The notes beneath the pieces were generated by a model. It ran no database searches. It was not told the DNA's origin and saw only the letters and a list, made by a program, of their open reading frames with translations. The position numbers and the translations under genes are program-made. A DNA stretch of 64,000 nt, from the NCBI RefSeq assembly GCF_902833225.1, contig NZ_CADFEI010000014.1, forward strand, positions 1 through 64,000, read 5' to 3'. This document shows, piece after piece, positions 5,823 through 37,903 of this stretch (positions are counted from its first letter, which is position 1; every line of letters starts with the position of its first letter). The DNA comes from Burkholderia sp. BCC1644 (GTDB lineage: Bacteria > Pseudomonadota > Gammaproteobacteria > Burkholderiales > Burkholderiaceae).

Positions 5823-5984
5823 CGCGTGACGCCCGCTGGCGACCGGCCGCATCAAAGGGTCGGAAGCATCGGCCGAAGTCGACACCGCGCGTCATTGCAT
5901 GGCGGGCGACCCCGCGCCGTCGATCGCCTAAACTGAATCGAACTGTTCGGATCCGACCCACCGTCACACGCAGCGAGGCAAGCC

Positions 5985-26779: not shown

Positions 26780-27988
26780 TCAGAAATTCACGCGGATCCC
26801 GGCCATCACGGCCAGTTGCCGGCTCGAATTGCTGTTCGCGAGCACCGGAATCTGCGCGTAGTTCACCGCGTTGCCGTCCGCGTCGGTGCCCAGCCCCGTC
26901 CCGCTCGCGATCTGACCGATCGCGACCGCATACAGCGCCGTGCGCTTCGACAGGCTGTAGTTCGTGCCGACGTTCACCTGGTGGAACCGCGTCGTGCCGC
27001 GTCCGTCGGTATGCGCCGCGTTGAAGATGTACGCGACGCCGCCCTGCAGCGCGGGCGTGAACATGTACGTGACGTTCAGCTCGCCGATGTCGAACGTGAA
27101 CGCCTGCGTGCGCGGCTGCGCCGTGGTCGAGAAATAGCGGCTGTCGCCGAGGCGCGTATGCGTGTAGGTCAGCGCGACCGTCGCCGCGCCGAGCGTGACC
27201 GAGCCGCCCGCGCCGAACGCGCGCATCGAGCCGGCATCCTGCAGCAGGCAGTACATCGCACCCGGGTTGCTGCACGCGAAATCGCCGATGTAGCCGCTCG
27301 CGCCGCCGAGCGCCGCGTCGAGCGGCTGGTGCAGGTCGAGGTAGCCGACCGAGAACGCCACCGGCGCACGCGTGTACGTCGCGGCCACCGCATAACCACG
27401 CTTCGCGGAAAAATCGCCGGCCTGCCCGCCGAAGCTGAACGTGCCGCCGAACGTGAGGCCGTTGAAATCGGCGCTGGTGAACTTCACCGCGTTGTTGAAG
27501 TTGAATGCGGCGTTCAGGTTGTCGACGTCGCCGATGTGCGACCCGTACGGCGTCGCCCAGTTGTTGCTCGACACGTACGCGCCGAGCATGTCCGTGTATG
27601 AGTCGTATTGGCGGCCGAGGCCGAGCGTGCCGATGCCGTCCTGGCGCAGCCCGACCCACGCCTGCCGGCTGAATGCCGTGCCGCCCTGCAGCGCCTGCCC
27701 GTTCGCGGACAGGAACTGCTGCTCGAGCGTGAACACCGCGTCGAGCCCGCCGCCGAGCGGCTCGGCGCCCTGGAAGCCGAAGCGGGATGGTACGAGGTTG
27801 CCGCCGCCCATCTGCCACGCATGGCCGCCGCCCGTGCTGCCGTCGGCGCGCGTGAACTGCTGGTTCGTCGAGTAGATGATGCCGGTATCCACCGTGCCGT
27901 ACAGCGTCACGCTCCCCGAGGTCTGCGCGTGTGCGTGCATGCATCCCAGCGTCGCCGCGGCTGCGGCCAGTCGTCGTCCGATTTTCAT
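26780..27988 (-). CDS. Gram-negative trimeric porin (OmpC/PorB-like)
   Basis: The 402-residue protein has a signal peptide ending MHAHAQ and the opening SSVTLYG-type strand (SGSVTLYGTVDTGII), a general diffusion porin pattern in Burkholderia. The constriction-loop region LGRQYDSYTDMLG and the last strand MAGIRVNF, which ends in Phe, support a 16-strand outer-membrane barrel. The start 27988 has a purine-rich GAGGGCGGG upstream. Upstream lies the shared TTTGCCGATTTG element (28085-28098), so this porin probably belongs to the amine regulon to its right rather than to the ABC operon 257 bp downstream. Confidence 0.9.
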   Translation of the reverse strand: MKIGRRLAAAAATLGCMHAHAQTSGSVTLYGTVDTGIIYSTNQQFTRADGSTGGGHAWQMGGGNLVPSRFGFQGAEPLGGGLDAVFTLEQQFLSANGQALQGGTAFSRQAWVGLRQDGIGTLGLGRQYDSYTDMLGAYVSSNNWATPYGSHIGDVDNLNAAFNFNNAVKFTSADFNGLTFGGTFSFGGQAGDFSAKRGYAVAATYTRAPVAFSVGYLDLHQPLDAALGGASGYIGDFACSNPGAMYCLLQDAGSMRAFGAGGSVTLGAATVALTYTHTRLGDSRYFSTTAQPRTQAFTFDIGELNVTYMFTPALQGGVAYIFNAAHTDGRGTTRFHQVNVGTNYSLSKRTALYAVAIGQIASGTGLGTDADGNAVNYAQIPVLANSNSSRQLAVMAGIRVNF

Positions 27989-28084
27989 GTCCCGCCCTCT
28001 GTGGTCATCGATTCGCAGTGCAAATCGATGGTGTTGTCGATATGGGTGACAGGACTCTATCCAGCGAAAATTCAGGACCTCTAT

Positions 28085-28098
28085 CGCAAATCGGCAAA
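28085..28098 (-). promoter_or_regulatory. shared regulon element, site 1 (porin)
   Basis: On the minus strand the element reads TTTGCCGATTTGCG, about 97-110 bp upstream of the porin start. It matches three other sites in this window, each in front of a leftward transcript. The spacing to the start is similar to that of the aldehyde dehydrogenase and LuxR genes. Confidence 0.7.
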
Positions 28099-28154
28099 CG
28101 GTGGAATGCGCTGCGCGCAACGGTGCCGGGCGGCGCCGTTGCAGCGTGCGCGCG

Positions 28155-29093
28155 TCACTCGGGACGCGTCGTCTGGGAAGGCAGTTCGCCGAACAGGTCG
28201 CGATACTCGCGCGCAAAATAGCCGAGATGCGTGAATCCCCAGCTTGCAGCGGCCTCGCCGACGCCGAGCTGCTGCACCGACGTCGTACGCAGCATGCGGC
28301 GCACGGCATTCAGCCGGATCGTGCGCAGATAGCCGACCGGCGTGACGTCGGCCACGCGTTGAAAACTCGTTTGCAGCGTGCGGCGGCTGCAGCGCAGCGC
28401 GCGGCACAGTTCGAGCACGGTGACGGGTTCCTCGGGCCGGTCGCGCAGATGCTTCTCGCAACGGCTCACGATATCGCTGTAGGTCGCGTGCGTGATGTCG
28501 CGGCGCTCGACGCCGATGCCCTGTTCGAGCGCGTCGAGGAACATGCCGAGCATCGCGTCGCGGAACATTTTGCGTGTGGCCGCGTATTCGAGGTGGCCCG
28601 GATTGCGCTGCGCTTCGTCGATCAGCGCCGACAGCCGCACGCCGAGCGCGACGCCCTGTTCGTCGGACAGCCGCGTCACATGCCGCAGCTTGCGCGCGCC
28701 GGACGCGCCGAATTCGGCCTCGCACAGCTCGTCGACCATGTCGGACGCCGCGCTGATCCCGACGAGCCCCATCCCTTCCGGCGTGTGGAATTCGAAATCC
28801 TCGCCGGCGCGCAGCGCGAGCAGCGCATAACCGTCGATCGGCTGACCCTGGAAGGTGCCCGCGAGCGGCACGGATAGCGGCACCGCGAGCGACGTGCGTC
28901 CGGCCGGCGCGAGCCCCGTTTGCGCGACGCGCCGGTTGGTCGTTTCGCGGAAGAAGTGGAAATCGTCGTACAGCACCTGCGTGACGGTGCCCTTGAAGCG
29001 GCCGGGCGTCATCTGGCGGTAGACCTGATGCCAGCCCGCGATCGCGAGCCCGTGATCGTGCACGTCTTCGTGTGAGCGTGACTGGAACAGCAT
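28155..29093 (-). CDS. AraC-family transcriptional regulator, EutR-like
   Basis: The 312-residue protein ends with an AraC/XylS double helix-turn-helix (VTVLELCRALRCSRRTLQTS and GFTHLGYFAREYRDLFGELP). The N-terminal sensor (FKGTVTQVLYDDFHFF onward) resembles ethanolamine-utilisation regulators and lacks a cupin-type HxH motif. The ATG at 29093 has GGAG 6 bp upstream; the nearby in-frame ATG at 29099 abuts that site. It lies just past the DUF3156 gene, in the same direction, and is a candidate binder of the shared element, together with the LuxR protein at 34917. Confidence 0.85.
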   Translation of the reverse strand: MLFQSRSHEDVHDHGLAIAGWHQVYRQMTPGRFKGTVTQVLYDDFHFFRETTNRRVAQTGLAPAGRTSLAVPLSVPLAGTFQGQPIDGYALLALRAGEDFEFHTPEGMGLVGISAASDMVDELCEAEFGASGARKLRHVTRLSDEQGVALGVRLSALIDEAQRNPGHLEYAATRKMFRDAMLGMFLDALEQGIGVERRDITHATYSDIVSRCEKHLRDRPEEPVTVLELCRALRCSRRTLQTSFQRVADVTPVGYLRTIRLNAVRRMLRTTSVQQLGVGEAAASWGFTHLGYFAREYRDLFGELPSQTTRPE

Positions 29094-29156
29094 CGGCATC
29101 TCCGGTAAAACCCTTAAACGCGGCCGCCGGGTGCCCCCGGCGCGCAACGCCACAGC

Positions 29157-29744
29157 TTACCCGTGCAAAATCCTGCGTAGTGCGGTTTCGAACGCAAGCA
29201 AGGCCGCCGACAATGCGGCGGCCTGCTCGCCCGTCAGGCGAACGTAGCGGCGAAACGACGGCATCCGGTTCACGACCTCGCTGCCGCCGAACGGCACGAT
29301 CGCGAGCGTCCAGCGGCCGTCGCACGCGTCGATCGTGCAATCGGTCAGGTGCAGCGGCCGCAGCGCGTCGGCCAGCGACGGTTCGGCGACCAGCGCGGTC
29401 AGCGTGCGGGCGAATACGGGGTCGCATCCCGATGCAGGCATGGCGTCGATCCCCGTGCTGCGCAGCCAGCCGGTCTGCCGCACCCGGGCACTGCCCTGCG
29501 CGGCCGGACCGCGTGCGGTCGCCGCCACCTTCACGCTGACCGTATGCATCAGGAACTGACGCTCGACACGCTCGTCCACGCTCACGCGCACGCCGTTCGG
29601 CAGCCGCGCCGTGGCACCGCCGACACCGTCGGCGTCGCGCGCGGCCTGCAGATCGGCGAGCACGCGCGCGGCGATCGCGCCGGGCCGATGGCCGGGCGGC
29701 GGTGCGTCGGGCGCCGCGCGCCAGCGGGCGAGCGCGGCCCTCAC
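29157..29744 (-). CDS. DUF3156-family protein
   Basis: The 195-residue protein is a conserved protein without a known function; the core GGSEVVNRMPSFRRYVRLT near residue 155-170 is the DUF3156 signature. There is no signal peptide or membrane segment. GTG at 29744 overlaps the TGA of the APC permease as GTGA, so the two are translationally coupled. The pairing with an amine permease recurs in related bacteria from memory, which points to a role in amine or amino acid use, not to a known reaction. Confidence 0.8.
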   Translation of the reverse strand: MRAALARWRAAPDAPPPGHRPGAIAARVLADLQAARDADGVGGATARLPNGVRVSVDERVERQFLMHTVSVKVAATARGPAAQGSARVRQTGWLRSTGIDAMPASGCDPVFARTLTALVAEPSLADALRPLHLTDCTIDACDGRWTLAIVPFGGSEVVNRMPSFRRYVRLTGEQAAALSAALLAFETALRRILHG

Positions 29745-31243
29745 GATGCGACGTGCTCGTTGCGCAGCACTTCCTCGACCGGCACCGGCTTGAACGGATG
29801 CCGGCGCTGCACGACGAGCGTCCAGAACAGCGCGTACAGCGCGGTGAGCCCGAGCATCGCGCCGAACGGCACGTAGATGTCGCGCGGATTCATGCCGGGC
29901 GGCGTGATGTACCAGATCGCGAGCACGATGCCGACGCTCGACACGATCTGCGGCAGCGGGAACAGCGGCGACCGGTACGGGCGCGGCAGGTCCGGACGGC
30001 GGATGCGCAGCATCACGACCGACGCGGTGACGAGCAGGTACGCGGTGCCCCACGCGCAGGTCGCCGCGAGCACGAGGTGCAGGATGCTGTCGAGATTGCC
30101 GTTGATCAGCCACGCGTGGAAGATCGGCACGATCGCCGCCGCCACGATGCCGACCACCGGCGTCTTGAAGCGCGGATGCAGGTACGCGAAGCAGCGCGGC
30201 AGCGCGCCGTCGATCGCCATCCCGTACAGGATGCGCGGCAGCCCGGCCATCAGCGTGTTGATCGTCGCGGCGCCCGCGCACAGGAACGCGATGCCGAACC
30301 AGATGCGACCGAAGGGCCCAAGCACCTGCAACGCGAACGCGGGAATCGCGCCCGGCGTGTCGAGCAGGTGCGTGAGGCCGTCGGGGCTCACCGGCACGTT
30401 CGCGACCTGGCGGCGAATCGCCGCGCCGTACAGGAACATGCAGATCGCGACGCCGACGAGGCCGAGCGCCATCGCGCGCGGGATCGTCCTGCCCGGCGCC
30501 TTCATCTCCGGCGCGAGCGGCGTGACGAATTCGCAGCCGACGAACATGAACATCGCCATCCCGACGAGCGACAGCACGGCCGGCACCGACGTGCCGACTT
30601 CCGAGCCGCCGAACCAGCCGTCGAGATGCACCGCCGGCGCGGCCGCGAGCCCGAGGATCCCGAAGATCATCAGCGACAGCCACATGCCGGCCGTCAGCAC
30701 GATTTCGAGCTTGCTGAACACCTTGATGCCGATGATGTTGGTGATCGCGAACGTGACCACGAGGCCGACGCCGACGAGCCACGAGCTGTTGTGCTTCTCG
30801 AACGCCGCGTTCAGCGATTCGAAGTTGACGAGCGCCATGATGCCGCTCAGGATCGTTTCCGCCGTCCCGGCGAACACGTGCACGAGGAAATACGCGGAGA
30901 TCGTGCCGGTAATGGCCCAGAAGCGGCCCAGCCCGCACGACAGGTAATCGTAGACCGAGCCGGCCGTCGGCAGCATCGCGGCCGCTTCGGAGAACGTGGT
31001 GGCCTGCGCCTGCATCATCACGAACGCGATGATCATCGCGACCGCGAACGCCCAGCCGCCCATCCCGAAGCCCGACGTCGCGGTGAGGATCACCGGGCTC
31101 GCCATGATGAGGCCGACGGCGCTCGCCAGCGCGGTCGGAAAACCGACCGCACCGGCCTTCAGCCCGATGCCGCCGCCCGCTTCCGCCGGCGAGCCTGCGG
31201 GCGACTCGCCCGCGGCGCCGGTCACTCCTGACCATCCCGACAT
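29741..31243 (-). CDS. APC-superfamily amino acid/amine permease
   Basis: The 500-residue protein has about twelve hydrophobic segments and APC features: GFPTALASAVGLIMASPVIL, the early TM1 glycine-rich helix ASAVGLIMASPV, and CEFVTPLAPEMKAPGRTIPR between later helices. The family includes ethanolamine, GABA and other amine importers. The ATG 31243 opens directly before a proline/alanine-rich leader. It starts an operon with DUF3156 (4-bp overlap) and is preceded by an inverted repeat and by shared site 2. The solute is probably a primary amine handled by the neighbouring aminotransferase. Confidence 0.9.
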   Translation of the reverse strand: MSGWSGVTGAAGESPAGSPAEAGGGIGLKAGAVGFPTALASAVGLIMASPVILTATSGFGMGGWAFAVAMIIAFVMMQAQATTFSEAAAMLPTAGSVYDYLSCGLGRFWAITGTISAYFLVHVFAGTAETILSGIMALVNFESLNAAFEKHNSSWLVGVGLVVTFAITNIIGIKVFSKLEIVLTAGMWLSLMIFGILGLAAAPAVHLDGWFGGSEVGTSVPAVLSLVGMAMFMFVGCEFVTPLAPEMKAPGRTIPRAMALGLVGVAICMFLYGAAIRRQVANVPVSPDGLTHLLDTPGAIPAFALQVLGPFGRIWFGIAFLCAGAATINTLMAGLPRILYGMAIDGALPRCFAYLHPRFKTPVVGIVAAAIVPIFHAWLINGNLDSILHLVLAATCAWGTAYLLVTASVVMLRIRRPDLPRPYRSPLFPLPQIVSSVGIVLAIWYITPPGMNPRDIYVPFGAMLGLTALYALFWTLVVQRRHPFKPVPVEEVLRNEHVAS

Positions 31244-31357
31244 CCTTGTCTCCTTCCTTGACTGGCCTGAACCGGCGCTTCGTCGGCGGCTGAGGCCACA
31301 TGCTTTGCGGTCGGCCCGGGGCGGCGCTTCAGCGCTTCGGTACCCGGGTCCCCTGTC

Positions 31358-31378
31358 GATCACATCGTGATCCGATGT
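31358..31378. promoter_or_regulatory. overlapping inverted repeats upstream of the APC permease
   Basis: Two perfect dyads overlap here: GATCAC-N3-GTGATC (31358-31372) and ACATCG-N5-CGATGT (31362-31378). They lie about 115-135 bp upstream of the permease start, between it and shared site 2. This is a candidate site for a second regulator. Confidence 0.5.
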
Positions 31379-31412
31379 CGAAAAAATACGCAGGCAAAAT
31401 AATCCGGTCATA

Positions 31413-31427
31413 GCGCAAATCGGCAAA
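31413..31427 (-). promoter_or_regulatory. shared regulon element, site 2 (APC permease operon)
   Basis: Minus-strand TTTGCCGATTTGCGC followed by TATGACCGG lies about 170-184 bp upstream of the APC permease start. An AT-rich stretch just downstream (ATTATTTTGCC, GTATTTTTT) could hold the promoter -10. Confidence 0.75.
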
Positions 31428-31488
31428 CCCGCAGCGGCATGCACGCTCCGCCCCAGGTTTGCCGTCGTGCGACTACCCCGTCATGCGG

Positions 31489-32829
31489 TCATGCGAACGG
31501 CACGGCCTCGAAACCGGCCGCCAGCGCGTCGACGATCCGGTCGAGCTGTTCGCGCTGGATCACGAGCGGCGGCGACAGGATGATCTTCGTGCCGACCGGG
31601 CGCACCAGCACGCCGTTCTCGCGCGCGACTTCCGCGACCGCGTTCGCATAGCCGGACAGCGGGTCGATCGGCTCGCGCGTGTCCTTGTTCGCGACGAGGT
31701 CGAGCGCAAGCATCAGCCCCTTGCCGCGCACTTCGCCGACCGCCGCGAAGCGTTCCGCGAACGGCTTCAGCGCCTCGAGCAGATACGCGCCCTGCTTCGC
31801 CGCATTCGCCGGCAAGTCTTCCTTCACGACGATGTCGAGGCTCGCGATCGCGGCCGCGCATGCGACCGGGTGGCCCGCATACGTGTAGCCGTGCATGATC
31901 GCACCGCCAAAATCGGCGTTCGCGGCAAACGCGTCCTCGATCCGCGCGTTCACGACCGTCGCGCCGAGCGGCACGTAACCCGACGAAATCCCCTTCGCGA
32001 GACACATGATGTCCGGGCGCACGCCCCAGCCGCGGCTGCCGAACATGCTGCCGCTGCGGCCGAAGCCCGTCACGACTTCGTCGGCGATCAGCAGCACACC
32101 GTAGCGATCGCACACCTCGCGCACGAGCGGCCAGTAGTTGGCCGGCGGCACGATTACGCCGCCCGCGCCCTGGATCGGCTCCGCGATGAACGCGGCGACC
32201 GTGTCGGGGCTCTGGAACTGGATCTCGCGCTCGAGCATTTCCGCGCAGATCCGGCCCAGTTCCTCGGGGTCCTGCGTGAACGGATTGCGGTACAGCCACG
32301 GCGTCTCGACGTGGAAGCAGCCCGGCAGGTTCGGTTCGTAGTTGCGGCGGAACACCGTGTTGCCGTTCACCGACGCACCGCCGAAGTGCGTGCCGTGATA
32401 GCCCTGCTTCAGCGAGATGAACTTCGTGCGGTCGGCCTGGCCGCGCACCTTCCAGTACTGGCGTGCGATCTTCAGCGCGGTCTCGATCGAATCGGAGCCG
32501 CCCGAGCTGTACAGCACGCGGCGCATCCCTTCCGGTTCGAGCATGTCGATCACCTTCTTCGACAGTTCTTCCGCGCGCGGATGCGAAATGCCGTCGAACA
32601 GCTGGAAGTATTCGAGTTCGTCGAGCTGGCGCACGATCGCGTCCTTCACTTCCTGGCGGTTGTGGCCGACGTTCACGTTCCACAGGCCCGCGACGCCGTC
32701 GACGAGCTTGCGCCCCTCTTCGTCGAACACGTAGCAGCCGTCGCCGCGCACGATGCGGATCGGCTTGCGCTGCTTCATCTCGTTCGGGTGCACCATCGGA
32801 TGCCAGAATTTCGCTTCGTTGTAGCTCAT
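31489..32829 (-). CDS. class III PLP aminotransferase
   Basis: The 446-residue enzyme has all fold-type I class III features: SSGGSDSIETALK (about 108-120), the PLP-binding Asp in LIADEVVTGFGR (Asp250) and the Schiff-base Lys279 in CLAKGISSGY. It belongs with pyruvate-dependent omega-aminotransferases that act on polyamines, beta-alanine or other terminal amines and give an aldehyde. ATG 32829 has GGAG 6 bp upstream, better than an in-frame GTG at 32841. It lies 72 bp downstream of an aldehyde dehydrogenase gene, a natural next step, with a hairpin between them. Confidence 0.9.
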   Translation of the reverse strand: MSYNEAKFWHPMVHPNEMKQRKPIRIVRGDGCYVFDEEGRKLVDGVAGLWNVNVGHNRQEVKDAIVRQLDELEYFQLFDGISHPRAEELSKKVIDMLEPEGMRRVLYSSGGSDSIETALKIARQYWKVRGQADRTKFISLKQGYHGTHFGGASVNGNTVFRRNYEPNLPGCFHVETPWLYRNPFTQDPEELGRICAEMLEREIQFQSPDTVAAFIAEPIQGAGGVIVPPANYWPLVREVCDRYGVLLIADEVVTGFGRSGSMFGSRGWGVRPDIMCLAKGISSGYVPLGATVVNARIEDAFAANADFGGAIMHGYTYAGHPVACAAAIASLDIVVKEDLPANAAKQGAYLLEALKPFAERFAAVGEVRGKGLMLALDLVANKDTREPIDPLSGYANAVAEVARENGVLVRPVGTKIILSPPLVIQREQLDRIVDALAAGFEAVPFA

Positions 32830-32855
32830 TGCAGTCTCCACTGTCGGATCGTTTG

Positions 32856-32874
32856 AACCTCGATCGCCGAGGTT
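32856..32874. promoter_or_regulatory. hairpin between aldehyde dehydrogenase and aminotransferase genes
   Basis: AACCTCG-N5-CGAGGTT is a perfect 7-bp inverted repeat in the 72-bp gap. There is no T-run, so it is more likely an RNA-stabilising stem or an operator than a terminator. Confidence 0.45.
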
Positions 32875-32901
32875 CGCGGTTTTCGTAATCGGAGCAACGC
32901 G

Positions 32902-34404
32902 TCAGTGCGCGATGCAGACGGATTTGGTTTCGGTGAAGCCTTCGATCGCGTACTGGCCGAATTCGCGGCCGATGCCCGATTGCTTGTAGCCGCCGAACGG
33001 CATCGACGGATCGAGCGGGATATGGCAGTTCACCCACACGGTGCCGGCCTCGATCTGCGGCACGAGGTTCATCACGCGCTTCAGGTCGTTGCTCCAGATG
33101 CTCGCGGCGAGACCGTACGGCGACGCATTCGCGAGACGCACGGCATCGGCCGCGTCGTCGAACGGCACGACGACGATCACCGGGCCGAACACCTCGTCGC
33201 GCACGATCGCGCTGTCCGGATGCGGATCGGCGATCACGGCCGGCTTCACGTAGTAGCCGGGCAGGTCGTCGGCCGGCGTGCCGCCCGCGAGGAACGTGAG
33301 GCCCGCGCGGCGCGCGCCCTCGATGTGCTGGACGACCTTGTCGCGATGGTGCGCGGATACCAGCGGGTTGATCTGCGCGGTCGTGTCGAGCCCCGCGCCG
33401 AGCTTCATCGACTGCGCGACGCCCGCGAGGCCGTCGGCCAGCTGCGCGAACTTGCTGCGGTGCACATAGATGCGCGACGCGGCCGCGCACACCTGGCCCT
33501 GGTTGAAGAACGCGCCGGCCGCGACGCCGTCGAGCGCTTGCGCGACGTCGACGTCGTCGAGCATCACGATCGGGTTCTTGCCGCCGAGCTCCAGCGAGAA
33601 GCGCGTCATGTTCTGCACGGCCGCCGCGCCGACCAGCTTGCCCGTCGCGGTCGAGCCCGTGAACGAGATCTTCGCGATCGACGGATGGCTCGCGAGCGCC
33701 GAGCCGCAGACGCGGCCGCCCGTGACGACGTTGAACACGCCGGGCGGCACGCCGGCCTCGCGTGCGAGTTCGGCGAGGCGCAGCGCGGTGAGCGGCGTTT
33801 CCGGCGACGGTTTCAACACGATCGTGCAGCCGGCCGCGAGCGCGGGAATCAGCTTCCACACCGCGATCATCAGCGGGAAATTCCACGGCACGATCGCCGC
33901 GACCACGCCGACGGGCTCCTTGCGCGTATAGGCCGTATAGCGCGCGCCGGGCGGGAACGGAATCGACACGTCGAGCGTCTGGCCGGTGATCTTGGTCGCC
34001 CAGCCGGCCATGTAGCGCACGTATTCGACGCTCGCGCCGACTTCGATCGCGCGCGACACGTGGATCGACTTGCCCTGGTTCAGCGTTTCGAGCTGCGCAA
34101 GCGTTTCGGCGTCGCCTTCGATCAGGTCGGCGAGTTTCAGCAGGATGCGTTCGCGGTCGGCCGGGCGCAACCCGCTCCACACGCGCGTGTCGAACGCGTG
34201 CTTCGCGCTGGCGACCGCACGGTCGACGTCGTGTGCGTCGGCATCCGCGACCGTTGCGAGCCGTTCGCCCGTGGCGGGGTCGTACACGTCGAGCCGCGCA
34301 GCCGCGTGCGCGGGCTGCATTTCACCGTCGATGAAGAGGCCGAAATCGCGCGCAACGAAGGTGCGCACGGTGTCGCTGACGGCGACGAAGTTCGTGTTGC
34401 TCAT
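32902..34404 (-). CDS. NAD-dependent aldehyde dehydrogenase, phenylacetaldehyde/betaine type
   Basis: The 500-residue enzyme has the ALDH catalytic set: Glu272 in LELGGKNP, nucleophile Cys306 in FNQGQVCAAA, the NAD-binding loop SFTGSTATGK and PWNFPLMIAVWK. The N-terminus GLFIDGEMQ and the tail GYKQSGIGREFGQYAIEGF resemble phenylacetaldehyde and gamma-aminobutyraldehyde dehydrogenases. It should oxidise the aldehyde from the downstream aminotransferase to an acid in the cytosol. The start 34404 follows a purine-rich site; shared site 3 lies about 92-105 bp upstream. Confidence 0.92.
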   Translation of the reverse strand: MSNTNFVAVSDTVRTFVARDFGLFIDGEMQPAHAAARLDVYDPATGERLATVADADAHDVDRAVASAKHAFDTRVWSGLRPADRERILLKLADLIEGDAETLAQLETLNQGKSIHVSRAIEVGASVEYVRYMAGWATKITGQTLDVSIPFPPGARYTAYTRKEPVGVVAAIVPWNFPLMIAVWKLIPALAAGCTIVLKPSPETPLTALRLAELAREAGVPPGVFNVVTGGRVCGSALASHPSIAKISFTGSTATGKLVGAAAVQNMTRFSLELGGKNPIVMLDDVDVAQALDGVAAGAFFNQGQVCAAASRIYVHRSKFAQLADGLAGVAQSMKLGAGLDTTAQINPLVSAHHRDKVVQHIEGARRAGLTFLAGGTPADDLPGYYVKPAVIADPHPDSAIVRDEVFGPVIVVVPFDDAADAVRLANASPYGLAASIWSNDLKRVMNLVPQIEAGTVWVNCHIPLDPSMPFGGYKQSGIGREFGQYAIEGFTETKSVCIAH

Positions 34405-34495
34405 GGGCGTCTCGAGGATTGTCGTGGCTGGACCGCGTGCCGGTGAGGCACGCGGGCGTCGAACCACTGTATCGACGAGGGATCACGCCCGGTGA

Positions 34496-34509
34496 GCGCA
34501 AATTGGCAG
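34496..34509 (-). promoter_or_regulatory. shared regulon element, site 3 (aldehyde dehydrogenase operon)
   Basis: Minus-strand CTGCCAATTTGCGC followed by TCACCGG differs from the other copies at two core positions, but keeps the ATTTGCGCTCACCGG end shared with site 4. It lies about 92-105 bp upstream of the aldehyde dehydrogenase start. Confidence 0.65.
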
Positions 34510-34640
34510 CGCGTGGGGGGGGAAGGTGGCGGGTTCGAACCGCGCGGGGGCGTCTGGCGGGGCGAGGCCGGAAACCGGGCCGATATCGGCCCGGACAACC
34601 GCTGTTCAGACACCTGACTGCCAGTCCGGTCGTTGAATGG

Positions 34641-34838
34641 CTAGTTTCTGAAACCGTGCGCCATCGATGCGAGGAAGTCGCATGCCTGGTAATCCAGCCA
34701 GTAAACACCGAGCGCAAGCGGGATCAGGAAGTACAGCGAATCGTACGTCCCGCTTCCGACCGTTCTGATGATGAAAATCGGCAGCGCAATGCTCAAGGCG
34801 ATGACCACAAGCGAAGCGGCAATGATCGCGACGTCCAT
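34641..34838 (-). CDS. small membrane protein, unknown function
   Basis: This 65-residue protein has two hydrophobic stretches: residues about 3-24 (VAIIAASLVVIALSIALPIF) and about 36-50 (SLYFLIPLALGVYWL). A short polar tail ends FRN. No family is recognised. ATG 34838 has an AAGGG site 8 bp upstream. It sits between the aldehyde dehydrogenase and LuxR genes on the same strand, but has no shared element directly before it, so membership in the amine system is uncertain. Confidence 0.6.
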   Translation of the reverse strand: MDVAIIAASLVVIALSIALPIFIIRTVGSGTYDSLYFLIPLALGVYWLDYQACDFLASMAHGFRN

Positions 34839-34916
34839 GTTTCGGGCCCTTGGTTGTTATGGAAACGACGATCGCGCATGGTACTGCCCGATCTCAAGGG
34901 CCAGCGAACGGAACAA

Positions 34917-35645
34917 TTACAAAAACAAAGCCCCGACCAGCTCCGTGCGGTTCGACACGCCGAGCTTGCGGTACATGCGCATCAGGTGAGTCTTGATCGT
35001 CGGTTGACCGAGCGCGAGATCGCGCGCGATCTCCTTGTTCGAGCAACCGTCGCGCACGAGGCGCGCGATCTGCTCCTCGCGATAGGTCAGACGCTCTTCG
35101 CAGCCGATCCGGTGGATCCCGCGCCGCGCGCGCAGCAGCGGGCTCAGCGCGGCTTCGGCCACCGGCTGCAGCCGCGCGAGCGCGTCGACTTCGCCGGGCG
35201 CGAACCGCCCTGCCGTGCTGTTGCCGGTCGCGTCCCCCTTCCCGAAACGCAGCAGCGAGAACGCGCCGACCGTGCGGCCCGCGTCGCGCAGCCAGATTTC
35301 GACGACGTCGGCCACGTCGTGCCGCCGCAGGAAACGGGTCCAGTACGCGGACGCCTCGCGTCTTTCGTCAGGCAATTGGGAAGCAAGCGTCACGACCGCG
35401 CATTCGCCCGCCGCGCAGCGTGACGGATGCAGCGGATCGAGCATCCGGTAGCGTGCGACATAGGTGCGGTGCATCGATTCCGGCATCCCGAACAGCTCGA
35501 AATCGGCCGGTTCGCCGCTCTGGTCGAGCCGATAAAACACGATCGCGGACGGGCTCGCGAACGCGTCGAACGCATCCACGCATGCACGCAGCGCACGCTG
35601 CCAGTCGGCGGCGTCCTGGTCGGCGGGAACGGAGAGGGTCGGCAT
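34917..35645 (-). CDS. LuxR-family transcriptional regulator
   Basis: The 242-residue protein ends with a LuxR/FixJ helix-turn-helix: LTYREEQIARLVRDG, SNKEIARDLALGQPTIKTHL and MYRKLGVSNRTELVGALFL. The N-terminal 150 residues look like a GAF-type sensor, and no receiver Asp or autoinducer pocket signature is evident. It is the outermost gene of the amine block and its own upstream region carries shared site 4, so it may be autoregulated. Ligand unknown; a catabolic amine or its product is a guess from context. Confidence 0.87.
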   Translation of the reverse strand: MPTLSVPADQDAADWQRALRACVDAFDAFASPSAIVFYRLDQSGEPADFELFGMPESMHRTYVARYRMLDPLHPSRCAAGECAVVTLASQLPDERREASAYWTRFLRRHDVADVVEIWLRDAGRTVGAFSLLRFGKGDATGNSTAGRFAPGEVDALARLQPVAEAALSPLLRARRGIHRIGCEERLTYREEQIARLVRDGCSNKEIARDLALGQPTIKTHLMRMYRKLGVSNRTELVGALFL

Positions 35646-35722
35646 GATGGAGTCGGCTGGCGTGCGAACGGATCGCGTAACGAAGTCCGGGCCAGCCTAC
35701 CGGCGCCGAAAAGCGCCGGTGA

Positions 35723-35737
35723 GCACAAATCGGCAAA
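35723..35737 (-). promoter_or_regulatory. shared regulon element, site 4 (luxR-type gene)
   Basis: Minus-strand TTTGCCGATTTGTGC followed by TCACCGG lies about 78-92 bp upstream of the LuxR gene start. The match to site 2 is 14 of 15 in the core. Confidence 0.75.
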
Positions 35738-35760
35738 TCGTCCCTGCCCGCCCACGGCGG

Positions 35761-35787
35761 CCGGTTCAGCCGGTTCAGCCGGTTCAG
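35761..35787. repeat. 9-bp tandem repeat (three units)
   Basis: CCGGTTCAG is repeated three times without change and followed by CCGG. It lies between the upstream region of the LuxR gene and the end of the metallopeptidase gene. It is short and has no evident function. Confidence 0.7.
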
Positions 35788-35827
35788 CCGGGACGATACG
35801 GGCGCGCGACGGTGCGCGCGCCGTCTT

Positions 35828-36709
35828 TCAGCGCGCGTTCGCGGCGAACGTGTCGCAGGCGCTCACCTGGCCCGACTCCATCCCGCGCCGCAGCCAGTAC
35901 ACGCGCTGGTCGCTGGTGCCGTGCGTAAAGCTTTCCGGTACGACGTAGCCCTGCCCTTGCTGCTGCAGCCGATCGTCGCCGATGGCCGCCGCCGCCTTGA
36001 GCCCCTGCTCGAAATCGCCCGGTTCCATCAGCCGCTGGTTGGCGCGCTGCGCGTTGTTCGCCCACACGCCGGCGAAGCAGTCGGCCTGCAGTTCCATCCG
36101 CACCGACAGCGCGTTCGAGCGCGCCTGGCTCGACCGCCGGCGCGCCGCGTCGACCTTGTCGGAAATGCCGAGCAGGTTCTGCACATGATGGCCGACTTCG
36201 TGCGCGACCACGTAGGCCTGTGCGAAATCGCCGCCCGCGCCGAAACGCTTGCGCAGTTCGTCGTAGAAACCGAGGTCGATATACACCTTGCGGTCGGCCG
36301 GGCAATAGAACGGCCCCATTGCCGTCTGGCCCGTGCCGCAGGCGGTCGGCGTCGAGTTCGTGAACATCACGAGCTTCGGCGCCTGATATTGCGCGTGCAG
36401 CTGGGTCGAGAAGACGCCTGTCCACGTGTCCTCGATGTTGGCGAGCACCTTGCGCGTGAACACTGCGCCCGGATCGTTCGCCGCCGCGCCCTGGCGTTGT
36501 GCCGGCGCGGGTTGCGCCTGCTGCTGGCGGCCCTGCAGCGCCGACGCGCCCTCGAGCACCACGCGCGGATCGATCCCGAAGAAATACGACGCGGCCAGCG
36601 CGACCACGATCGTGCCGATGCCGATCGTCGCACCGCGCCCGCCGCCGAAACCGCCGGCACCGCGGCGATCCTCGACGTTCATGCTTTCTCTTTCGTCGTC
36701 CAGCCTCAT
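35828..36709 (-). CDS. YpfJ-family neutral zinc metallopeptidase
   Basis: The 293-residue protein has one N-terminal membrane anchor (TIGIGTIVVALAASYFFGID, about 30-50), an Ala/Gln-rich linker, then the zinc site VVAHEVGHHVQNLLG with HExxH, and the downstream glutamate in MELQADCFAGVW. The DRKVYIDLGFYDELRKRFGA segment is typical of the YpfJ/PF04228 family, whose substrate is not well defined. It probably acts in the periplasm. ATG 36709 follows GGGAGGGG by 6 bp. It is read leftward, opposite to the SDR gene. Confidence 0.88.
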   Translation of the reverse strand: MRLDDERESMNVEDRRGAGGFGGGRGATIGIGTIVVALAASYFFGIDPRVVLEGASALQGRQQQAQPAPAQRQGAAANDPGAVFTRKVLANIEDTWTGVFSTQLHAQYQAPKLVMFTNSTPTACGTGQTAMGPFYCPADRKVYIDLGFYDELRKRFGAGGDFAQAYVVAHEVGHHVQNLLGISDKVDAARRRSSQARSNALSVRMELQADCFAGVWANNAQRANQRLMEPGDFEQGLKAAAAIGDDRLQQQGQGYVVPESFTHGTSDQRVYWLRRGMESGQVSACDTFAANAR

Positions 36710-37111
36710 TGCCGGCCCCTCCCTGTTCTTGTCGATGGTCCGGCCGCGCCAGCGCGCAACCGGGCGATACGCCGCGGCGACACGATCCATCGGCGGACGC
36801 GATACCCGTGCATCGGATGCACGCTCGCGCCGATCCTGCCGGCCTGCCGCTCCGCTCGCACGACGGAATCGACCTGCCGACGCGCCGCGCGTCGATGCGC
36901 GCGCCCGCCCGCGCTATTTTGCCGGGCTTTCGTGACTTATCGCAAAAATGTGGAGGATAGAGCGATTCGGCGCCGCACATCGTCAGCCTTTGCAAAATGG
37001 GCCATGACCGCGCCGGCCGTCCGGACGACCCTCGTTCATCCTTTCGGCCGATACCGTCGCACGCCGGCGCCGCCTAAAGTGGCCGGTAACGACACCTTTC
37101 CGGAGAACGAC
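36710..37111. other. 402-bp divergent intergenic region
   Basis: This region separates the leftward metallopeptidase from the rightward SDR and holds no supported gene. It contains GGAG at 37102-37105, the ribosome site of the SDR. An AT-richer patch near 36933-36965 may hold a promoter. No clear palindrome was seen. Confidence 0.5.
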
Positions 37112-37903
37112 ATGACGCACCCGCAACCCCGCACGATCGCGATCACCGGCGCGGGCACCGGCATCGGCGCCGCGTGCGCGCGCCGCTTCGCCAGCCGCGG
37201 CGACCGCGTCGTACTGATCGGGCGCCGCCAGGCGCCGCTCGACGCACTGGCCGCCGAAACGGGCGGCCTCATCCTCGCGGGCGACGCCGCGAGCACCGCC
37301 GACTGGGCCGGGTTCCTGCCGCGCATCGCCGAGCGCTTCGGCCGCGTCGACGCGCTCATTGCGTGCGCGGGCGGCCACGGTGTCGGCCGCGCGGATGAAA
37401 CCGACGACGCGCAGTGGCGCAACGCGATGCACGCGAACCTCGACACCGCGTTCGTCAGTGCACGCGCGTGCCTGCCCGACCTGATCGCGCAGCGCGGCAG
37501 CATCGTGCTGGTCGCGTCGATCGCGGCGCTCGCGGCCGGGCCCGGCGTATGTGGCTACACGGTCGGCAAGCATGCGCTGCTCGGGCTCGCGCGTTCGCTG
37601 GCACGCGACTACGGCCCGCACGGCGTGCGCGCGAACGCCGTGTGCCCGGGCTGGGTCCGCACGCCGATGGCCGATGCCGAAATGGAACCGCTGATGGCCG
37701 CGCATGGCGACACGCTCGACGGTGCGTACGCACGCGTCAGTGCCGACGTGCCGCTGCGGCGCGCCGCCGAACCGGACGAAATCGCGGCCGTCTGCGCGTT
37801 TCTCGCCTCGCCGGATGCGTCGTTCGTGACCGGCGCGACGCTCGTCGCCGACGGCGGCGCGATGGTCGTCGACGTGCCGACGCTCGCGTTCGACCGGCTT
37901 TGA
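37112..37903 (+). CDS. short-chain dehydrogenase/reductase
   Basis: The 263-residue protein is a classical SDR: TGAGTGIG cofactor motif (about 13-20), a variant NAG motif ACAGGHG, Ser in VLVASIAAL and the catalytic pair in YTVGK (Tyr and Lys). The C-terminus SFVTGATLVADGGAM is a normal SDR ending. It should oxidise or reduce an alcohol/ketone with NAD(P). ATG 37112 has GGAG 6 bp upstream. The LysR gene follows after 184 bp on the same strand, so a functional link to the LysR/MFS cluster is possible. Confidence 0.9.
   Translation: MTHPQPRTIAITGAGTGIGAACARRFASRGDRVVLIGRRQAPLDALAAETGGLILAGDAASTADWAGFLPRIAERFGRVDALIACAGGHGVGRADETDDAQWRNAMHANLDTAFVSARACLPDLIAQRGSIVLVASIAALAAGPGVCGYTVGKHALLGLARSLARDYGPHGVRANAVCPGWVRTPMADAEMEPLMAAHGDTLDGAYARVSADVPLRRAAEPDEIAAVCAFLASPDASFVTGATLVADGGAMVVDVPTLAFDRL

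Follow-up and report, generated by a model that had tools for sequence, protein, structure and literature searches.

A conserved promoter element in a predicted amine-catabolism gene cluster of Burkholderia follows the gene of an EutR-like AraC protein

Introduction

When the same promoter element stands in front of four transcripts and two regulators are encoded among them, which of the two reads it? This question is raised by a block of about 8 kb in the first 64,000 nucleotides of contig NZ_CADFEI010000014.1 of Burkholderia sp. BCC1644 (hereafter the window, meaning the whole stretch analyzed; the genome has 8,251,338 bases). The block carries genes for a porin, an APC-type permease, a DUF3156 protein, an EutR-like AraC protein, an aminotransferase, an aldehyde dehydrogenase and a LuxR/GerE-type protein. 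A sequence-only reading had noted the shared element, had combined the four transcripts into one local regulon, and had named the AraC and the LuxR protein as candidate binders, leaving the choice between them open. Comparison across genomes favors AraC as the binder, while luxR appears to be one of the targets. The AraC protein would act as a single-box, class-II-type activator of the porin gene, the permease–DUF3156–araC unit, the aldehyde dehydrogenase–aminotransferase unit and luxR; to this reading we assign a probability of about 0.85.

Results

Four Sites of One Element Are Confined to the Gene Cluster

The four sites lie on the minus strand and, to within two bases, where they had been placed before: upstream of the porin gene (TTTGCCGATTTGCGAT, 28083..28098), of permease–DUF3156–araC (TTTGCCGATTTGCGCT, 31412..31427), of aldehyde dehydrogenase–aminotransferase (GCTGCCAATTTGCGCT, 34495..34510) and of luxR (TTTGCCGATTTGTGCT, 35722..35737). 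All four match a refined core, TGCCRATTTGNGMT. From the end of the site to the start codon, the distances are 94, 168, 90 and 76 bp, respectively. The porin site is conserved in Burkholderia relatives having the same porin, the permease and aldehyde dehydrogenase sites are likewise conserved, and the motif recurs in Burkholderia, Paraburkholderia, Trinickia, Aquitalea, Leeia and Pseudogulbenkiania. Directly after the site, relatives conserve A/C-A-C, followed by a -10 box 22–23 bp on. The downstream ACCGG that had been described as shared is not the conserved part in relatives, and at the permease it is shifted by two bases against the other sites.

Allowing up to three mismatches, the 16-mer of the sequence-only reading matched four times in the window, compared with a shuffle mean of 1.07 (2/100 shuffles reached four). 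Genome-wide, two exact matches (both in the cluster) and two one-mismatch matches (one in the cluster) were obtained, i.e., three of the four fell in the 8-kb block; at up to three mismatches the signal was drowned in noise, with 108 places versus 59 for the reversed-pattern control. In a genome-wide scan with the refined core, exactly four matches were found in 8.25 Mb, all of them in the cluster (reversed-pattern control: 1), and the motif is not randomly scattered within genes of the source genome. The proposal of one local regulon is thus borne out by four core sites that all lie here, share one geometry and are conserved in relatives. The aldehyde dehydrogenase site, previously called weaker, is so only when compared with the 16-mer, from which it deviates at three positions; it fits the core perfectly. 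Since the core was derived from the four sites and their orthologues, i.e., tuned after the sites had been seen, the genome count of four cannot serve as an independent test by itself. Such tests are provided by conservation in relatives and by the spacing to the -10 box.

Eleven one-mismatch core matches elsewhere in the genome were considered as extra regulon members and rejected, none of them having the -10 spacing. One of these (C8:143367), which precedes an AraC paralogue, is conserved at that place but lacks the promoter geometry. Five core variants of the site gave no text match in the literature searched, which lay mostly outside subscription journals.

The Element Stands at a Fixed Distance from the -10 Box

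A hexamer TANNNT was found 22–23 bp past the 16-bp box at 4/4 cluster sites as against 0/11 of the one-mismatch matches; this spacing had played no part in finding the sites. All four -10 boxes lie on the minus strand: TAGAGT for the porin promoter (28054..28059; predicted +1 at 28047), TATTTT for the permease promoter (31383..31388; predicted +1 at 31376) and TACAGT for the aldehyde dehydrogenase promoter (34466..34471; predicted +1 at 34459), each 23 bp after the site, and TAGGCT for the luxR promoter (35694..35699; predicted +1 at 35687), 22 bp after the site. The background frequency of TANNNT was 0.2% of window positions for either offset, or 10/2700 intergenic positions per offset.

The same spacing is kept in relatives. 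Among their unique downstream sequences, TANNNT at 22–23 bp was present in 31/35 for the porin, 38/38 for the permease (all at 23 bp), 67/71 for the aldehyde dehydrogenase and 67/68 for luxR; the four porin failures are 12/16 look-alikes before porins and no real sites. Taking all collected sites together, 283/297 fit TANNNT at a spacing of 22–24. The expected +1, 51 bases after the site start, is an A in 71% of 138 non-redundant promoters, which had been pre-filtered for the TANNNT hexamer.

Since the distance to the -10 box is fixed at 22–23 bp, the box would stand at about -51 to -36 from the predicted +1, beside the -35 place. It is asymmetric and, relative to that +1, lies at or just upstream of -35, as AraC/XylS operators do, and its position corresponds to that of a class-II-type AraC activator at the predicted start sites. 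None of the four window promoters shows a TTGACA-like -35 element.

A fixed distance to the -10 box would also be expected of a -35 element, and one might regard the repeated sequence as a sigma-factor promoter motif, or as a chance repeat, rather than an operator. The observation that scattered core matches exceed the reversed-pattern control in family genomes without AraC (see Discussion) agrees with this. However, the element is 16 bp long, abuts the -35 position, occurs just four times in 8.25 Mb and tracks the AraC gene across genomes. We therefore consider an origin as sigma-factor motif or chance repeat very improbable.

The Element Tracks the AraC Gene and Not the LuxR Gene

The LuxR protein, too, could be the binder that controls all four transcripts: its gene lies within the cluster and has a site of its own, and LuxR is also encoded in 61 of the 67 AraC-containing stretches of one collection (set A, 71 stretches) and in 55/55 of those in a second (set B, 80 named loci collected with a LuxR query). 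The two sets overlap in genomes and are not independent. In order to count as a full-geometry site, a box had to match at 13/16 positions or better and to have the -10 spacing; 14/16 served as a stricter cut.

In set A, a full-geometry site was present in 61/61 stretches with both regulators, 6/6 with AraC only, 1/3 with LuxR only and 1/1 with neither. In set B, the corresponding values were 55/55 with both and 3/25 with LuxR only. Thus, 22 of the 25 stretches with LuxR and without AraC (from Pseudomonas, Amphritea and others) had no full-geometry site. At the stricter cut, only Variovorax L168 (set A, AraC only, then 5/6) and L211 (set B, then 2/25) were lost. As to the three exceptions in set B, stretch L237 stops before araC and the matching genome G005 carries araC (L077); L259 comes from P. 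ferrariae, which encodes AraC (53%) elsewhere in its genome; and L211 has a single 13/16 match with a spacing of 24. The exceptions in set A are L185, with one site and AraC elsewhere in genome G441, and L121, a 4.4-kb contig fragment with one site and neither regulator. L215 and L210 are short contigs from which the upstream parts are absent, and L275 and L276 were left out of the search.

Four genomes, G056, G045, G458 and G424, encode AraC and lack a LuxR orthologue genome-wide (best E ~1e-7, GerE domain only); the state AraC without LuxR was established genome-wide only for these four, and G441 has an unlinked LuxR. Full-geometry sites persist in all four (3, 1, 3 and 2, respectively). In each count of three (G056 and G458), one box is a 13/16 match, and a 14–16/16 box that precedes an FAD oxidoreductase gene and lacks TANNNT is not counted. 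In G056, boxes precede the aldehyde dehydrogenase gene, the permease gene that follows araC, and the gene of an FAD-dependent oxidoreductase, the last with CAGAAT at the -10 place. This oxidoreductase is nearest to L-pipecolate oxidase, below the cut-off, and seems to replace the aminotransferase. Each of the additional 13/16 boxes of G056 (L122, 5024) and G458 (L169, 6605) has TANNNT 23 bp on; it precedes the aldehyde dehydrogenase unit and is close to a small unrelated gene that takes the usual place of luxR.

Whole-genome counts gave the same picture. AraC was found at E <= 1e-70 in 56/61 genomes of a genus sample; at least three core sites were present in 53 of these 56 and one or two in the remaining three. 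The five genomes without AraC had 0, 0, 1, 1 and 1 core sites, one of the five being the fragmented genome G032, in which the permease gene and its site lie on a small contig. Among 200 family genomes, at least two core sites occurred in 27/27 with AraC versus 10/173 without. For nine of these ten, the sites are listed in full (for G366 the list is incomplete); their two sites are widely separated or on separate contigs, with a minimum distance of 10.7 kb (G404). AraC status and core counts were joined for the 200 family and 61 genus genomes on the assumption of an identical sample, with which the listed genomes agree.

The box itself is not a dyad: its best self-match is 6, compared with a mean of 5.84 after shuffling. 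Sites of the GerE type, in contrast, are usually dyads. In addition, related boxes serve paralogous AraC clusters, and LuxR was not found in those stretches. On the presence table and the missing dyad symmetry, LuxR was rejected as the binder; the chance that it nevertheless is appears minimal. In G441, luxR lies away from the cluster and has nevertheless kept its box (L185); therefore luxR would be a member of the regulon and not its reader. In G034 (L120), luxR is split in two, with about 1.5 kb between the pieces, and its box has drifted to 14/16 and lost the -10 box, while the other three boxes keep theirs.

A role of LuxR downstream of AraC is a separate matter. In a feed-forward arrangement, AraC would bind the element and drive the promoter of luxR; LuxR would then act second on the same or other promoters via another sequence. 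The retention of the AraC box by unlinked luxR genes (L185 of G441 and L259 of P. ferrariae) and the location of luxR inside the operon in Aquitalea are in line with it. Against it, inspection of the 30 bp preceding the box showed no second conserved element, and some genomes that retain the other sites have a broken luxR or no LuxR. We regard such a second tier as unlikely, though far less so than binding of the element by LuxR.

As a side observation, relatives of LuxR, the aldehyde dehydrogenase, the permease and the DUF3156 protein are encoded in Pseudomonas aeruginosa PA7 and on a P. aeruginosa plasmid (L209, L167). On the plasmid, an AraC gene annotated as FeaR adjoins these relatives; the box is absent from both stretches.

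Genes of the Cluster

All genes of the cluster are on the minus strand. The proposed binder (28155..29096) has an AraC-type helix-turn-helix in its C-terminal DNA-binding region, which is about 100 residues long (Pfam HTH_18, 70.9 bits, cut-off 33.6); its best NCBIfam match is EutR, with 175.9 bits over residues 6–310, under the curated cut-off of 319. The porin gene (26780..27988; Pfam Porin_4) lies downstream of it. The gene of the permease, an APC-type amine/amino acid permease by NCBIfam and Pfam profile searches (29741..31243), overlaps the DUF3156 gene (29157..29744) by 4 bases, and araC begins 60 bases further on. Because of this overlap and short gap, araC is probably part of the permease transcript and would be positively autoregulated. 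The class III aminotransferase (31489..32829) matches NCBIfam PRK07481 with 853.2 bits (cut-off 575), and the aldehyde dehydrogenase (32902..34404) is nearest to StyD-type phenylacetaldehyde dehydrogenase, with 697.9 bits below a cut-off of 850. The proposed target luxR (34917..35645) encodes a protein with Pfam GerE.

Between luxR and the aldehyde dehydrogenase promoter, a predicted membrane protein of 65 residues is encoded (34641–34838, minus strand). A short-chain dehydrogenase gene on the plus strand (37112–37903) is preceded by none of the four core sites. Relatives of it (64–71% identical) occur near the cluster in Aquitalea and Pseudogulbenkiania, in 12 of the 14 outgroup stretches listed, some of which come from the same genomes; both Leeia stretches are without a relative. 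In genome G006 (L112), the permease reading frame has one in-frame TGA.

Two Paralogous EutR-like AraC Clusters Have Related Boxes

The source genome has two further EutR-like AraC genes, on C29 and C8. The C29 cluster encodes another class III aminotransferase (58%), an aldehyde dehydrogenase (42%) and another APC permease. It holds TTGCCGATNNCGGAC twice, before the APC permease and before the aldehyde dehydrogenase, 22 bp from TANNNT in each case, and two such sites per genome were present in 6/6 genomes examined. In the C8 cluster, TTGCCGGTC-type boxes stand 22 bp from TACAGT in 5/5 genomes examined. This cluster encodes a protein like the large subunit of methylamine dehydrogenase (177.7 bits, cut-off 454.45) and a phenylacetaldehyde-dehydrogenase-like protein, below the family cut-off. 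Facing the third EutR-like araC, back to back with the box of that cluster, lies a conserved element, CGTGCCGATTCGGGATATTGG (L293, about 5866–5881), which lacks the -10 spacing and might serve in autoregulation.

The first helix-turn-helix (SRRT[LM]QxSFQ) is common to all three paralogues, while the second diverges more. This pattern would suit a box whose 5' half is constant and whose 3' half sets specificity, where we infer which helix-turn-helix reads which half. Tentatively, and with somewhat less than even confidence in the whole, paralogous EutR-like AraC activators of Burkholderiales may share one promoter code, in which a nearly invariant first helix-turn-helix would read the constant 5' half-box TTGCCG[A/G]T, the diverged second would read the 3' half-box that sets specificity, and a single box would stand at a fixed 22–23 bp from the -10 box. 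Each activator would then govern an amine-deaminating enzyme unrelated to those of the others (aminotransferase, TTQ-type dehydrogenase or FAD oxidase) together with the same kind of aldehyde dehydrogenase.

Tyramine or a Related Arylalkylamine as the Leading Candidate for the Substrate

The label of amine catabolism derives from gene content: to judge by their families, porin, permease, aminotransferase and aldehyde dehydrogenase imply the uptake of an amine, its deamination to an aldehyde and oxidation to an acid. In three genomes of the Aquitalea genus (G313, G343 and G177), the cluster adjoins 4-hydroxyphenylacetate (hpa) genes. HpaA, HpaD, HpaE, HpaH and the N-terminal subunit of HpaG scored above their cut-offs in G313, an HpaF-like isomerase just below; HpaE and HpaD are encoded beside the cluster in G343 and G177. 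Thus, tyramine is favored, which would yield 4-hydroxyphenylacetate, and tyramine or a related arylalkylamine is our leading guess for the substrate. In Leeia, no hpa gene was among the 5 of 15 predicted neighboring genes scanned. In G313 (L124, 8969–10666; L201), an arylsulfatase-like gene (134.7 bits, cut-off 481) follows the cluster, with the hpa genes on the other side.

Alternatively, the substrate could be histamine, the cluster then being the counterpart of Pseudomonas hinABCD and not one for tyramine or phenylethylamine. Its gene types match the hin set of permease, regulator, aminotransferase and aldehyde dehydrogenase as far as given in the available parts of two reports (PMC8231116, PMC6467879). 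However, the hpa genes beside the cluster in the three Aquitalea-genus genomes, with HpaA in one, point to tyramine there, and the aldehyde dehydrogenase is nearest to phenylacetaldehyde dehydrogenases, though below their cut-off. Histamine is therefore rated as doubtful, less likely still than the feed-forward role of LuxR.

Discussion

A Model for the Cluster and the Points That Weigh against It

According to the proposed model, the AraC protein would bind directly to an asymmetric box of about 16–18 bp, TTTGCCRATTTGNGMTMAC, at about -51 to -36. Bound there, it would adjoin the -35 place and recruit RNA polymerase to the -10 box 22–23 bp downstream, i.e., it would activate and not repress. 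In the presence of an amine, or of a product of the amine, AraC would turn on the four predicted units: the porin gene, permease–DUF3156–araC, aldehyde dehydrogenase–aminotransferase and luxR. Activation of the second unit would amount to positive autoregulation. The amine would be imported, deaminated to the aldehyde and oxidized to the acid.

Several points weigh against this model. Members of the AraC family often bind two repeats, but only one box is seen here, and no second copy was found upstream in the flanks of the 138 non-redundant promoters. The core was tuned on the sites. In 52 of the 173 family genomes without AraC, 63 scattered core matches occur, compared with 17 for the reversed-pattern control. 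Counts from related genomes are not independent of one another, and a LuxR query had been used to collect set B. Variovorax (L168, AraC 39%) has two 14/16 boxes without the -10 spacing, and its sole box with the spacing is a 13/16 match. Finally, at the set spacing TANNNT is absent from 14/297 collected sites. These comprise four Paraburkholderia-type aldehyde dehydrogenase promoters, the luxR promoter of the broken gene, the four porin look-alikes and five others, among them the FAD oxidoreductase sites, where CAGAAT (G056), CACAAT (G045) and GACAAT (G458) replace TANNNT.

With the AraC assignment, a motif seen by eye becomes a proposed pair of regulator and operator for which start sites can be predicted, and this in a genus where many AraC proteins are unassigned. 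If the half-box code is true, amine regulons of EutR-like AraC proteins across Burkholderiales could be predicted from sequence.

Comparison with Known Systems

The nearest known relative is EutR, the activator for ethanolamine in Enterobacteriaceae, which the AraC protein resembles over its whole length. In enteric bacteria, according to a review (PMC5821096), footprinting placed EutR immediately upstream of -35, and eutR closes an operon that EutR activates. The present cluster is alike in both respects: the box would lie at -51 to -36, and araC is third behind a permease gene with an upstream box. It differs in that the AraC protein scores below the EutR cut-off, deamination would be by an aminotransferase, and a luxR gene is among the proposed targets. 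No ethanolamine ammonia-lyase (EutB/EutC) was among the eight window proteins scanned (26780–36790); by context, the AraC protein here is not an ethanolamine regulator.

Pseudomonas hin clusters for histamine also group a permease, an aminotransferase, an aldehyde dehydrogenase and a regulator, according to the portion of the report available (PMC8231116), a likeness in gene types. The regulator in P. aeruginosa is the LysR protein HinK, and that portion makes no mention of an EutR-like AraC protein. Closer at hand, the paralogous C29 and C8 clusters share the TTGCCG-type box, the 22 bp and TANNNT, and an aldehyde dehydrogenase in each stretch, whereas the 3' half of the box differs.

In the parts of the sources returned by literature searches, no earlier AraC-amine regulon of this kind was recognized. 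Since the position of the EutR site and the activation of its own operon are on record (PMC5821096), the way of working is already known. The regulator and operator set of this cluster is a clear-cut new instance of a type of gene switch that is already familiar.

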